From Halococcus morrhuae DSM 1307 (GTDB taxonomy: Archaea; Halobacteriota; Halobacteria; Halobacteriales; Halococcaceae), in NCBI RefSeq assembly GCF_000336695.1, contig NZ_AOMC01000134.1:10658-48257 (forward strand): a stretch of 37,600 nt of DNA, written 5' to 3'. Position numbers and translations under genes: made by a program. A model generated the notes under the pieces. The model made no database searches, was not told the origin of the DNA, and was given only the letters and a program-made list of their open reading frames with translations. This document shows, piece by piece, positions 7,927-20,917 of this stretch (position 1 is the stretch's first letter; every line of letters starts with the position of its first letter).

Positions 7927-8288
7927 GGTGGTGCGGTAGCGGTTCCTGGCGTCTGCGGTCGCAGTCCTGGTGTATGAAGGGCGAGTAGCGAGGGGTCTTC
8001 GGTCCCTTGTACCGTGCGAGCGGGCCATGCGCGGCGCGTAGCGCCGCAAGTTCGAGGCGGCGAATCCGCCTCGTACGCCCGCGAGCAGACGCCCGAAGGG
8101 CGCGAGGGCTTCGGCGGAGGCGGTGCTGTGCGGTTGCGGAAAGTGTCGCATCCGCGCGAACGCAGTGAGCGCGGTTCACCGCGAACGAGCCGAAGGCGAG
8201 TGAGCGGAAGTTTTTGGTCCAGATTTTTGGACGGGGTTCGAGGCGAGCGAACGAAGTGAGCGAGTCGAGGACTCCGTCTAAAAAGGTG
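7927..8288 (+). repeat. Dispersed intergenic element, copy A
   Basis: This non-coding stretch shares ordered blocks with 20319-20592. The blocks are an identical 11-mer (7927-7937 = 20319-20329), ATGAAGGGCGAG (7974-7985 = 20339-20350), CGAGGGCTTC plus GCGGTGCTGTGCGGT (8103-8134 = 20397-20422), a 28-base identical block (8152-8179 = 20460-20487), and a T-rich tail with a terminal stem. Here that stem pairs 8224-8234 with 8274-8284 (11 bp, extendable with wobble pairs to 16). Copy A also contains perfect hairpins at 8031-8047 (7 bp, GTA loop), 8053-8073 (8 bp) and 8090-8102 (5 bp, GAA loop). There is no convincing gene. It may be a non-autonomous mobile element or a structured RNA; the sequence alone does not decide. 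Confidence 0.7.
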
Positions 8289-8593
8289 GAATTGTCGCCC
8301 GGAACACTAACGGCCGGCCTCATCGCGGGCGGTGTGCCGTCTCGGCCGGTAAACCCTATGCCGGGCGGGTCGTCGGCGACCATCCTCGGCCGGCGTGTGC
8401 CGGCCTCGCAGTCGGTTGCGCATGGCGCAACCCGTGTCGCCGGTCGACACCGGCTCCACGTTCGGTCGTGCTACGCACGACCCATGTCGCACGCCGGGGT
8501 TCGCCGCGCGTCATCGCGTCCGTGTGGACGTACTCGGGCGAGGACTACGGCGTGCGGTCGCGATACGGACCACGAGTATAAACCATCCGTGAC
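8289..8593. other. Gene-free stretch containing a run of five perfect hairpins (8368-8482)
   Basis: Five consecutive perfect hairpins lie in 115 bases: 8368-8381 (5-bp stem, 4-base loop), 8388-8405 (7 bp, GTGT loop), 8414-8432 (8 bp, ATG loop), 8439-8454 (6 bp, CGAC loop) and 8464-8482 (8 bp, TAC loop). Spacers are only 6-9 bases. A further long-range pair CCGGCC/GGCCGG (8314-8319 and 8344-8349) precedes them. Short reading frames here have no protein-like features. I could not match the region to RNase P RNA, SRP RNA or tRNA. It lies just past the 3' end of the flavoprotein gene (stop at 8594) on the minus strand. Confidence 0.6.
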
Positions 8594-18981: not shown

Positions 18982-20304
18982 ATGGACCGGGATACCACAG
19001 CACCCCGTGTCAGCGAGCTACCGGGACCGCGCGCCCGCGAATGGGTCGAGCGCCAGCAGGACGTCGCTGCTCCGAGCACCTACGTCTACGAATTCGTCTG
19101 GGATCCGACCGCACCCGCCGAGGGACCGTTCTGTACCGATCCCGACGGCAACGTCTTCCTGGATTTCACCTGTCACGTCGGGGCGGCCCCGCTGGGCTAC
19201 AACAACCCGAAGATCACCGAACCGATGGCCGAGTTCGACCTCGTCGACCCGCTGAAGACCGCGGGTCACGATTTCTACGTGGGGGCTGGTTCACCCGACG
19301 ATCCCGATTTCCCCGGCCCGGCGGGGCTGATGAAGCGACTCACCGACCTGACGAGCGCGTACGACATGGACAAGGTGTTCCTCTCGAACTCGGGAGCCGA
19401 AGCGATCGAGAACGCCATCAAGATCTGCTACGACGGCGGTGGCTCCTACGGCATCACCTTCCAGGGCGCGTTCCACGGTCGGACGCTCGGCGCGCTCTCG
19501 CTCAACCGCTCGAAATCGGTCTATCGTCGGGAATATCCCGAGGTTTCGGGCATTCACGACGTGCCGTTCTGCAGTGATCGAACCTGTGAGGCCGGGGACT
19601 GTTCGTGTGGCTTTTTCACCGGCGAGGGATCACAGCTCCGCCGAATGCTGAGTGACGAGGGATCGGTCGCGCCCGAGGAGGTCGCCTATCTCGTCATGGA
19701 ACCGATCCAGGGCGAGGGCGGCTATCGGTTCCCGAGCGACGCTTTCATGCAGGAGATCGCCGACGTCTGCGAGCAGTACGACATCACGCTGATCGCCGAC
19801 GAGATCCAGGCCGGAATGGGCCGGACGGGTGAATGGTGGGGTGCCGATCACTACCCAATCGAACCCGACGTCATCACGGCCGCGAAGGGGCTCCGCGTCG
19901 GGGCGACGATCTCGCGCTCGGATGTCTTCCCCGAGGAGAAGGGTCGTATCTCCTCGACGTGGGGTGCCGGCGACATCATCGCCTCGATGCAGGGCGCGCT
20001 CACGATCGACGCGATCCAGGAGTACGATCTGATGGACAACGCCGTCGCGCGCGGCCGCCAGTTCAAGCAACATCTGCGCGACGCCGCCCCCGAATCGGTC
20101 GTCGACGTGCGCGGGAAGGGGCTGATGCTCGCCATCGAGTTCGACACCACCGACACCCGTGACGCAGTCCTCGAAAACGCCTTCCAGAGCGGACTGCTCA
20201 CGCTCGCCTGTGGGAACAAGACGCTCAGGATTCTCCCGCCGCTCGACGTCACTGAGCGCGAGATCGACCTCGGTGCGCGCATGCTGCTCGACGCCATGGA
20301 GTGA
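18982..20304 (+). CDS. Class III aminotransferase (PLP-dependent)
   Basis: This 440-aa enzyme belongs to the acetylornithine/4-aminobutyrate/ornithine aminotransferase family. Seen in order: FLSNSGAEAIENAIK, the GAFHGRTLGALSL stretch, VMEPIQGEGGYRFPS, LIADEIQAGMGRTGEWWG with the PLP-binding Asp, and the Schiff-base lysine Lys302 in TAAKGLRVG. The substrate is not clear; some archaeal relatives are broad-range transaminases or racemases. An unusual Cys cluster lies at residues 197-209 (Cys197, 202, 207 and 209, spacing CX4CX4CXC), between the HGRT region and the EGGY region. A similar Cys-rich stretch occurs, as I recall, in several archaeal and bacterial relatives. No biosynthetic neighbours point to a pathway. 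Confidence 0.93.
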   Translation: MDRDTTAPRVSELPGPRAREWVERQQDVAAPSTYVYEFVWDPTAPAEGPFCTDPDGNVFLDFTCHVGAAPLGYNNPKITEPMAEFDLVDPLKTAGHDFYVGAGSPDDPDFPGPAGLMKRLTDLTSAYDMDKVFLSNSGAEAIENAIKICYDGGGSYGITFQGAFHGRTLGALSLNRSKSVYRREYPEVSGIHDVPFCSDRTCEAGDCSCGFFTGEGSQLRRMLSDEGSVAPEEVAYLVMEPIQGEGGYRFPSDAFMQEIADVCEQYDITLIADEIQAGMGRTGEWWGADHYPIEPDVITAAKGLRVGATISRSDVFPEEKGRISSTWGAGDIIASMQGALTIDAIQEYDLMDNAVARGRQFKQHLRDAAPESVVDVRGKGLMLAIEFDTTDTRDAVLENAFQSGLLTLACGNKTLRILPPLDVTEREIDLGARMLLDAME

Positions 20305-20306
20305 CG

Positions 20307-20320
20307 CCGCCGCGCGGCGG
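20307..20320 (+). terminator. Self-complementary GC palindrome after the aminotransferase stop codon
   Basis: A perfect 14-base palindrome CCGCCGCGCGGCGG starts two bases after the TGA. It may fold into the 3' end of the mRNA. Oligo-T runs of the kind that end archaeal transcripts come only about 200 bases later (20521-20525 and 20534-20538), inside the repeat element. Confidence 0.35.
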
Positions 20321-20592
20321 TGGTGCGGTCCCTGGCGGATGAAGGGCGAGGCACATGGTGTGAGCGTAGCGAACACCGCGACCGAAGGGAGCGTGCCGAG
20401 GGCTTCTGCGGTGCTGTGCGGTCGGCGGTCGGTTGTTGCGGTGCTGTGTTGAAGATCGTCCGCGCGAACGCAGTGAGCGCGGTTCACTGCGAGTGAGCGC
20501 GTAGCGCGAACGAGCAGAGGTTTTTAGTCCAGGTTTTTGGTCGGGGGTTGAGCGCGAGTGCAACGAGCGCGATGCCCCCGACCAAAAAAGTG
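20319..20592 (+). repeat. Dispersed intergenic element, copy B
   Basis: This stretch between two convergent genes shares the same ordered blocks as 7927-8288, in the same orientation, but is shorter and lacks the hairpins seen at 8031-8102 in copy A. The terminal stem is perfect here: 20534-20547 (T5 then GGTCGGGGG) pairs with 20575-20588 over 14 bp. Compared with copy A, one pair is switched from A-T (8231/8277) to T-A (20541/20581), so pairing is kept. The T-run comes first and the A-run last on both strands, the reverse of a bacterial terminator. Each strand thus offers a T-run to the convergent transcript entering it, as an archaeal oligo-T terminator could. Confidence 0.7.
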
Positions 20593-20596
20593 GTTG

Positions 20597-20917
20597 TTAG
20601 TGATCGTCCTCGCGCCAGCGGTGTTCGCACTCCGTACAGACGAAGAACCGGGTTTCGGATTCGTCGGCCGAGCGGATCTGTTGCATATACCAGTAGGCTT
20701 CGTCGTTGCCACATTCCGAGCAGTGGACTTCGGTGGTGGGAAGCCCCCGGTTCTCGGCGTCGCTGACGTCGATGATTTCGGTCTCCTCTTGACCTTGTGT
20801 CGTCGTCATCGCCGCCTCCTTCGCATCGTCGCGCGGTTTGGTGTAGCCACAGTTGTCGCAGACCCACACGCCGTCGTCGGTCTTCATCATCGAGCCGCAC
20901 TCGTCGCAGAACTCCAT
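20597..20917 (-). CDS. tfs: Transcription factor S (TFS), archaeal TFIIS-like
   Basis: This 106-aa protein rescues stalled RNA polymerase by stimulating cleavage of the nascent RNA. It has two zinc ribbons. The N-terminal one has Cys4, Cys7, Cys20 and Cys23, and the C-terminal one Cys66, Cys69, Cys94 and Cys97. The tip of the C-terminal ribbon carries the catalytic acidic pair Asp85-Glu86 in QIRSADESET, so the cleavage-stimulating activity should be intact. The linker (about 31-60) is acidic. The length is typical. A TATA-like box (20941-20950) lies about 27 bases before the start. It was formerly called RpoM. Confidence 0.96.
   Translation of the reverse strand: MEFCDECGSMMKTDDGVWVCDNCGYTKPRDDAKEAAMTTTQGQEETEIIDVSDAENRGLPTTEVHCSECGNDEAYWYMQQIRSADESETRFFVCTECEHRWREDDH

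Follow-up and report, generated by a model that had tools for sequence, protein, structure and literature searches.

An intergenic element family of haloarchaea with a fixed T-run, T-run, A-run core retains its fold at gene borders while its letters are rewritten

Two intergenic elements, copies A and B, in a 37,600-nucleotide stretch of the Halococcus morrhuae DSM 1307 genome (contig NZ_AOMC01000134.1, positions 10,658 to 48,257 of the forward strand; hereafter the window) are members of a large haloarchaeal family, the core of which runs in the order T-run, 8 bases, T-run, hairpin, A-run, 5 bases. The reading preferred here, on sequence evidence and with a probability of about 0.45, is that the element is a transcription-unit border, probably a bidirectional T-tract terminator, that is rewritten by recombination. 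The combination of a run-length register, a strand-autonomous fold, hairpins rewritten at fixed places and repeats of the neighbouring gene's tail is rated as new, although the job that the element performs may be an ordinary one.

Results

Two copies with a common paired core

A sequence-only reading of the window had proposed that two of its gaps hold copies of one structured element, and the coordinates given for the shared blocks and stems were all correct on recheck. The 28-base identity between 8152-8179 and 20460-20487 is exact, and the longest exact common word is 29 bases, compared with at most 12 in 200 dinucleotide shuffles. The arms at 8224-8234/8274-8284 and 20534-20547/20575-20588 pair along their whole length, with a single G.T in copy A (8229/8279), and the compensatory pair is present as described: 8231/8277 is A-T in copy A and 20541/20581 is T-A in copy B. 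Beyond those arms a closing stem continues the pairing, CCA 8219-8221 with TGG 8287-8289 in copy A and CCA 20529-20531 with TGG 20591-20593 in copy B, and an extra T5 lies outside the stem in both (8211-8215 and 20521-20525). When up to 3 mismatches were permitted, the 18 bases TTTTTRGTCCAGRTTTTT matched the window at copies A and B only, both exactly, with an expectation of 0.00. Folded as single-stranded DNA, the 76-nt stem region of copy B gives z = -6.1 and copy A gives z = -2.9. The parts of the core are named T1, linker p1-p8, T2, hairpin hp2, A-run and right end q1-q5; all features below were delimited from the sequence unless another basis is given.

7927-8289, plus strand: copy A, whole element
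8152-8174, plus strand: copy A hairpin CCGCGCGAACGCAGTGAGCGCGG
8179-8207, plus strand: copy A hairpin hp1, CCGC ... GCGG
8211-8215, plus strand: copy A outer T-run (T1)
8216-8223, plus strand: copy A linker GGTCCAGA
8224-8284, plus strand: copy A inner T-run, hairpin hp2 and A-run
8285-8289, plus strand: copy A right end, GGTGG
20319-20593, plus strand: copy B, whole element (left structured part and core)
20338-20406, plus strand: copy B left hairpin, GATGAAGGGCGAG ... CGAGGGCTTC (sequence and alignments of nine orthologous pairs)
20460-20482, plus strand: copy B hairpin CCGCGCGAACGCAGTGAGCGCGG, within the 28 identical bases
20487-20517, plus strand: copy B hairpin hp1, CTGC ... GCAG, which contains tandem G.A pairs and lies just 5' of the outer T-run
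20521-20525, plus strand: copy B outer T-run (T1), of a length that covaries with T2 and the A-run
20526-20533, plus strand: copy B 8-base linker p1-p8, AGTCCAGG (stem covariation)
20534-20588, plus strand: copy B inner T-run, hairpin hp2 and A-run
20589-20593, plus strand: copy B right end q1-q5, AGTGG

The gap that holds copy B is flanked by an aminotransferase gene (plus strand, 18982-20304) and a convergent TFIIS-type zinc-ribbon gene (minus strand, 20597-20917), the TAA stop codon of which follows the core after a 3-nt spacer (20594-20596). In Halococcus-type copies the left hairpin has a variable middle between fixed bases.

Directly to the right of copy A, the minus strand of 8290-8560 holds a candidate H/ACA guide RNA that resembles HgcG. 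It matches RF00064 with E 0.013 and 16.2 bits, far under the gathering score of 77; its ACA plus 3 nt terminates exactly at the copy A core, and a TATA-like TTTATA lies upstream at 8582-8577.

Family size and range

The search for further copies that the sequence-only reading had proposed found many, both in the host's own genome and in genomes of the order. BLAST with copy B found at least 64 matching pieces in the own genome (40 of 110 first-look candidates scored) and matches in 18 of 41 genomes, namely the own genome, all nine others of the genus, five of eight further genomes of the host's family and three of 23 beyond it. Five loci in Halococcus thailandensis (L063, L088, L094, L099 and L100) have the same form of the element. 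The strict pattern GTCCAGRTTTTN{20,50}AAAARGTGG found matches in 53 of 145 genomes from the order and none in the reversed control. The loose pattern TTTTN8TTTTN{20,50}AAAANNT, with overlapping matches counted twice, gave 51 matches in the own genome against 3 in the reversed control and 18-72 in each of 14 other genomes of the host's family, with controls of 0-3; one genome (G010) had just 2.

No Rfam family matched the window at gathering score, and at E up to 10 the copy B region had a single match, with E 2.2. Literature searches found no account of such an element. BLAST of copy B against 72,556 plasmid and 50,697 phage records found no similar DNA, and a viral scan with a short core gave 79 stretches, none of which has AAAA[AG]GTGG inside 75 nt. 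A further 25 bacterial and other non-haloarchaeal matches appeared by eye to have no A-run plus right end and were taken as chance.

Two variants were encountered. At G003:C1:2088635-2088701 the core stem is a long G run followed by a long C run, possibly an assembly artefact. The own genome, G002 and G003 also hold a related class with a 7-base linker (CCCCAAG, CACTACG) and a right end beginning GT, the pairing of which was checked in few members.

Core anatomy and covariation

Among 232 distinct strict-core copies, T1 has at least four Ts in all 231 with readable letters; T1 and p1 were unconstrained in the strict-pattern and BLAST searches, and in one set of 110 pattern-fetched loci T1 was fixed at five and p1 restricted to A or G. 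The trio (p1,p8,q1) reads G,A,G in 149 of these 232 copies and A,G,A in 71.

In a census made without any requirement for pairing, p4-p6 pair with q3-q5 at all three positions of the closing stem in 178 of the 192 candidates with an eight-base linker; the other 14 look mis-registered in the A-run or due to chance. The stem occurs in seven versions (CCA/TGG, GCA/TGC, GTA/TAC, CGA/TCG, CAA/TTG, GAA/TTC and GGA/TCC), the spread of which is not a fair sample since most loci had been retrieved either through the GTCCAG motif or with patterns in which q3 is T. When 76 motif-selected cores of one hairpin type were aligned, 97.4% of cells were paired and 81 had a two-sided change (24 in shuffles), with a covariation score of 0.184 compared with 0.041, the copies of the family not being phylogenetically independent. 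The five pairs with two-sided change are less striking (3.4 in shuffles, reached by 30 of 500). The closing stem is invariant in these 76 cores, so its covariation rests on the other classes. The earlier suggestion of selection on structure is supported, with strong additional covariation in both the closing stem and the hairpin.

T-run and A-run lengths in register

The lengths of T1, T2 and the A-run in 231 copies are 5/5/5 in 121, 4/4/4 in 34, 6/6/6 in 12 and 7/6/6 in 6, together 173. T1 and T2 are equally long in 102 of the 149 copies of the G,A,G class, compared with a maximum of 79 in 20000 permutations, a test in which the length classes partly track hairpin subfamilies. The exceptions in that class include 6/5/5 (11 copies), 4/5/5 (10) and 5/4/4 (8), and a hairpin subfamily starting with ATC is 4/5/5 in 9 of 9. 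At the copy-B locus all three runs are jointly shorter (4/4/4) in several species of the genus.

Three phage-like contigs (L389, L390 and L391; GC 41-42%) hold TTTTCTTTTTT-AGTCCAGG-TTTTTTCTTTT...AAAAGAAAAAA-AGTGG, an 11-step mirror tract that includes a C opposite a G-C pair. The motif pattern by which they were found fixes four Ts on each side, and the extension of the mirror was unselected; the contigs are related, and the tract may have arisen by chance or convergence. Immediately after it comes a second, similar motif (GCCAAGC ... GCGGC), and neither L389 nor L390 has an Rfam match at gathering score. A search of 392 genomes with one pattern for a C-G replacement in a haloarchaeal T:A helix gave 3 matches, none with a convincing hairpin and all judged from their strings to be chance.

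Placement at gene borders

Placement was scored for 215 copies with sufficient flank, 62 with a gene-tail repeat and 153 without; gene calls for these counts, as for the strand contexts and the T5 control below, came from a GC-position heuristic and not from a gene finder. A convergent right-hand gene was detected at most 250 nt away in 83 of the 153, and in 73 of them the core and the stop codon of that gene are 0-10 nt apart, with a mode of 3-4. Among the left neighbours of these stop-abutting copies, 36 are forward, 29 reverse and 8 undecided. In the remaining 80 copies without a tail repeat a start codon lies 15-75 nt to the right in 43, at 30-48 nt in 35 of these, where a leaderless gene's promoter would be expected. 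A crude promoter motif is present in 8 of the 80 and in none of the other groups, so promoter adjacency rests on the start-codon distance. Start-to-start layouts are the minority, 9 of 35 copies of the start-codon group with a called left neighbour.

T-runs face outwards on both strands, T1 and T2 from the left and the A-run complement from the right; where a convergent gene abuts, that complement is within 15 nt of its stop codon. A T-run of at least 4 thus faces the upstream gene, as in archaeal T-tract terminators. Among element-free genes, 15 of 307 have T5 within 15 nt of the stop. The 17 neighbouring proteins compared with Pfam are mostly housekeeping; none is a transposase, one has no Pfam match, and the others gave tRNA-ligase anticodon domain, thiolase, ETF-alpha, phosphate acetyl/butyryl transferase, glutaredoxin, histidine biosynthesis, carbamoyltransferase, M29 peptidase, beta-lactamase fold, citrate synthase, PCNA, aconitase, glutamyl-tRNA reductase, aminotransferase, TFIIS zinc ribbon and FAD oxidoreductase.

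One strand folds whatever the direction of the neighbours

In 91% of 222 cores the T-rich strand folds more stably than the complementary strand, as it does over the 45 nt before T1 in 90% of 221 copies. Compared with shuffles, the hairpin in that stretch is only modestly better (median z -1.35), and its stem ends at most 3 nt from T1 in 79% of 221 copies and 65% of shuffles. A bacterial intrinsic terminator has a GC-rich stem and then a T-run; hp2 has T-runs before its stem on both strands, and the order of hp1 and then T1 is a loose fit. In the 208 of 223 unique hp2 hairpins that passed a score filter, G.A and A.G mismatches number 561 compared with 29 C.T and T.C, tandem GA/AG occurs 239 times, and G.T and T.G number 143 compared with 46 A.C and C.A.

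This bias is much the same across all gene contexts represented by more than a few copies. In the 29 copies antisense to both neighbours, G.A-type mismatches outnumber the other type 76 to 1 and the T-rich strand is the more stable in 25. Since the bias is independent of neighbour direction, the fold appears to be a property of the element and not of the neighbouring mRNA, unless copies are replaced so often that local selection is unneeded.

Fixed sites with rewritten hairpins

At the copy-B locus, 3' of the TFIIS-type gene, the element or a recognisable variant is present in 15 of 18 genomes of the host's family, being truncated, degenerate or interrupted in three of the 15 (G011, G013 and G015). 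At this one locus examined for empty sites, the element is absent in all three g4 genomes. In G015 (L320) the linker CCTGGACT is broken by an insert of about 95 bp of repeat-like sequence.

Comparison of the own genome (G000, 48 cores) with G003 (33 cores) gave 23 orthologous pairs with flanks 85-97% identical, accepted only where the closing stem was paired, so that unpaired cores would escape; the other 25 G000 cores have no partner among the fetched G003 loci, a count that does not establish empty sites. The hp2 sequence is identical in 5 pairs and different in 18, and in 14 of the 18 similarity is below 0.9, the lowest being 0.39. The closing stem has changed on both sides in 4 of the 23 (for example AGTCCAGG/AGTGG and CATGAACG/GGTTC); other motif changes affect the p1/p8/q1 class in 2, several linker bases in 1 and one base in 3. 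In the left half, compared in nine orthologous pairs, hairpin bases are fixed and middles variable. Hairpin modules of about 50-70 nt occur in one species and are missing from the other at the same spot, in the left part of the element or beside hp1, for example between L339 and L502, L341 and L511, and L330 and L498. Shape is retained while letters change unusually fast, which suggests that the element is probably functional rather than junk.

Gene-tail repeats and tandem cores

In 67 of 227 copies a stretch of 21-156 bp from the 3' end of the upstream gene recurs just behind the core, starting at most 15 nt from the right end, and four additional copies have the repeat at a greater distance. 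The junction consists of GTGG, gene-equal bases (3-5 in 44 of 62), 1-2 extra bases (57 of 62; mostly C or T in the rows printed) and the rest of the tail. This rule has a mean score of 0.69 over 44 clusters, in a clustering that merged some distinct genes and split others, compared with -1.28 for mismatched pairs and a maximum of -0.35 among 2000 null means. By eye, the second tail copy stops inside hp1 or hp2 at several loci.

In six gene groups the two tails of one locus are 95-98% identical and tails across loci 70-84%, the repeats having been picked by a scoring rule that inflates within-locus identity. For several genes the repeat has the same start across different genera, which suggests that it is old and homogenised or has formed repeatedly. 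At the 124 differences between tail copies, A stands 32 times in the first and 32 times in the second, so they are not adenine-specific.

Tandem cores are spaced 92-133 bp, or about 150 and 220 bp, apart. Neighbouring cores of the closest spacing (92-133 bp) were seen at G075:C1:2160436-2160703 and G096:C1:947246-947404 and likewise in G083, G135, G119, G143, G055, G086 and G088; some close-set cores are tandem arrays of gene tail plus core.

Discussion

In the favoured reading the T-runs would terminate transcription arriving from both sides, as the T-tracts of Haloferax volcanii do, and the folded strand, as nascent RNA or single-stranded DNA, would enforce the stop or be recognised by a protein; T1 could perhaps be a third strand over the T:A helix. 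Copy-to-copy replacement, by gene conversion or template switching at hairpins, would spread and rewrite the copies, altering hairpins and, in some cases, entire cores at fixed places, and leaving gene-tail repeats behind the core. We infer such copying because hairpins are rewritten at fixed sites, tail repeats share a junction and breaks fall inside hp1 and hp2. Weighing against a border, the outer T-run and the T-strand fold are retained in the 29 of 73 stop-abutting copies that need no top-strand terminator; moreover, T-run termination alone leaves the strand-specific fold, the run-length register and the gene-tail repeats unexplained.

In Haloferax volcanii T5C terminates 95% and hairpins lie upstream of 503 termination sites, according to PMC7237163, the main text of which does not use the term 'repeat'. 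The element resembles these terminators as there described (PMC7237163), with a T5 tract after the gene and hairpins upstream of many termination sites, but differs in its conserved folded core, the closing stem of which covaries, and in its T-runs, which point in both directions and on either strand come before the hp2 stem.

Possible, although rather unlikely, is that the element serves recombination as single-stranded DNA, in the manner of integron attC sites or REP/IS200 ends, the T-rich strand folding and a putative recombinase or nuclease acting 3-5 nt beyond the stem, with cores exchanged and tails copied in tandem. A folding strand independent of the neighbours' direction, the replacement of hairpins and some whole cores at fixed sites, tandem cores (92-133, about 150 and 220 bp apart), the gene-tail junction rule and the correlated p1/p8/q1 bases, which have a parallel in guide/cleavage base triples, are all consistent with this. 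Against it, the copy-B site is retained in most genomes of the host's family, the element tightly abuts stop codons, and both closing-stem partners have changed in just 4 of 23 orthologous pairs. The Y1_Tnp domain (PF01797), present in 17 of 26 genomes, is absent from the element-rich G002, G008 and G011, which have 40, 47 and 36 loose-pattern matches, and from G088, which has 9 strict ones; mobilisation by a Y1/RAYT enzyme is thus not supported as a requirement. The fuller version, an archaeal recombination system previously unknown in which the T:A helix of the folded strand takes a third T strand and a putative trans-acting enzyme works 3-5 nt past the stem, is unlikely; there, cores would be exchanged between gene borders and tails copied in tandem, borders being kept and letters rewritten faster than neighbouring genes mutate.

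REP/BIME elements are extragenic palindromes moved by RAYT (Y1) transposases, and the haloarchaeal family is like them in its many extragenic palindromes by gene ends, its one structured strand and its occasional tandem copies. However, several element-rich genomes have no Y1_Tnp match, the element abuts stop codons, and the letters of its hairpin are highly variable, unlike the stem base and the T and A runs, which stay. Integron attC sites likewise act as a folded single strand with a variable hairpin on a fixed base, and some copies of the element form gene-end-plus-site tandem units, but the majority occur singly between ordinary genes. Diversity-generating retroelements share the order of gene 3' end, hairpin and gene-end copy; the absence of adenine specificity in the tail-copy differences sets the element apart, and such a retroelement is not supported.

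Doubtful, and less probable again, is a 3'-end RNA stability module on the T-rich strand, in which U1 and U2 would clasp the A-run in a U.A-U triple helix and the protected transcript would end 3-5 nt past the stem. In MALAT1/ENE the RNA triple helix has its tracts in the order U-rich, U-rich, A-rich. The element shares this order and has matching tract lengths in 173 of 231 copies, and the excess of T1 = T2 (102 of 149, permutation maximum 79), the bias to G.T over A.C and to tandem G.A, and the 11-base mirror tract of L389-L391 with its C opposite a G-C pair point the same way. Its tracts are, however, short (4-7 nt), joined by an 8-nt linker and not tied to transcript sense. T1 and T2 should also halt the transcript short of the A-run, runs of unequal length exist (6/5/5, 4/5/5, 5/4/4, and one subfamily with 4/5/5 in 9 of 9), and the one C-G replacement form sought in 392 genomes gave 3 matches, none convincing. 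In 29 of the 73 stop-abutting copies the T-rich strand is antisense to the left and right gene alike, with the fold unchanged; as the same strand folds in either neighbour direction, a pure 3'-UTR RNA is weakened and is not the whole story.

Selection on structure, as suggested by the sequence-only reading, is supported, with many further copies and strong covariation; its non-autonomous transposon or MITE needing a terminal inverted repeat is very improbable, for despite the high copy number there is no constant target duplication (direct repeats are 21-156 long), positions are retained in 23 orthologous pairs and at the copy-B locus in most genomes of the host's family, and copy B has no similar DNA among the 72,556 plasmid and 50,697 phage records. 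Variable repeat length and retained positions were the grounds for rejecting a mobile element with target duplications.

No Rfam match at gathering score and no literature description were found, and the tests for a Y1-mobilised repeat, a transposon with fixed-length target duplications and a diversity-generating retroelement came out negative; the combination of features is rated new. The functional part could still prove to be an ordinary terminator, and the element may represent a class of bidirectional terminators for archaea or a natural three-strand pairing in prokaryotes. The data provide a testable account of a class of haloarchaeal palindromic intergenic repeats, in which one strand folds, with tandem G.A pairs and a fixed T/T/A core, and a case of structure that is retained while sequence is replaced between close species. 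Furthermore, the common junction of the gene-tail repeats points to an undescribed copying process.
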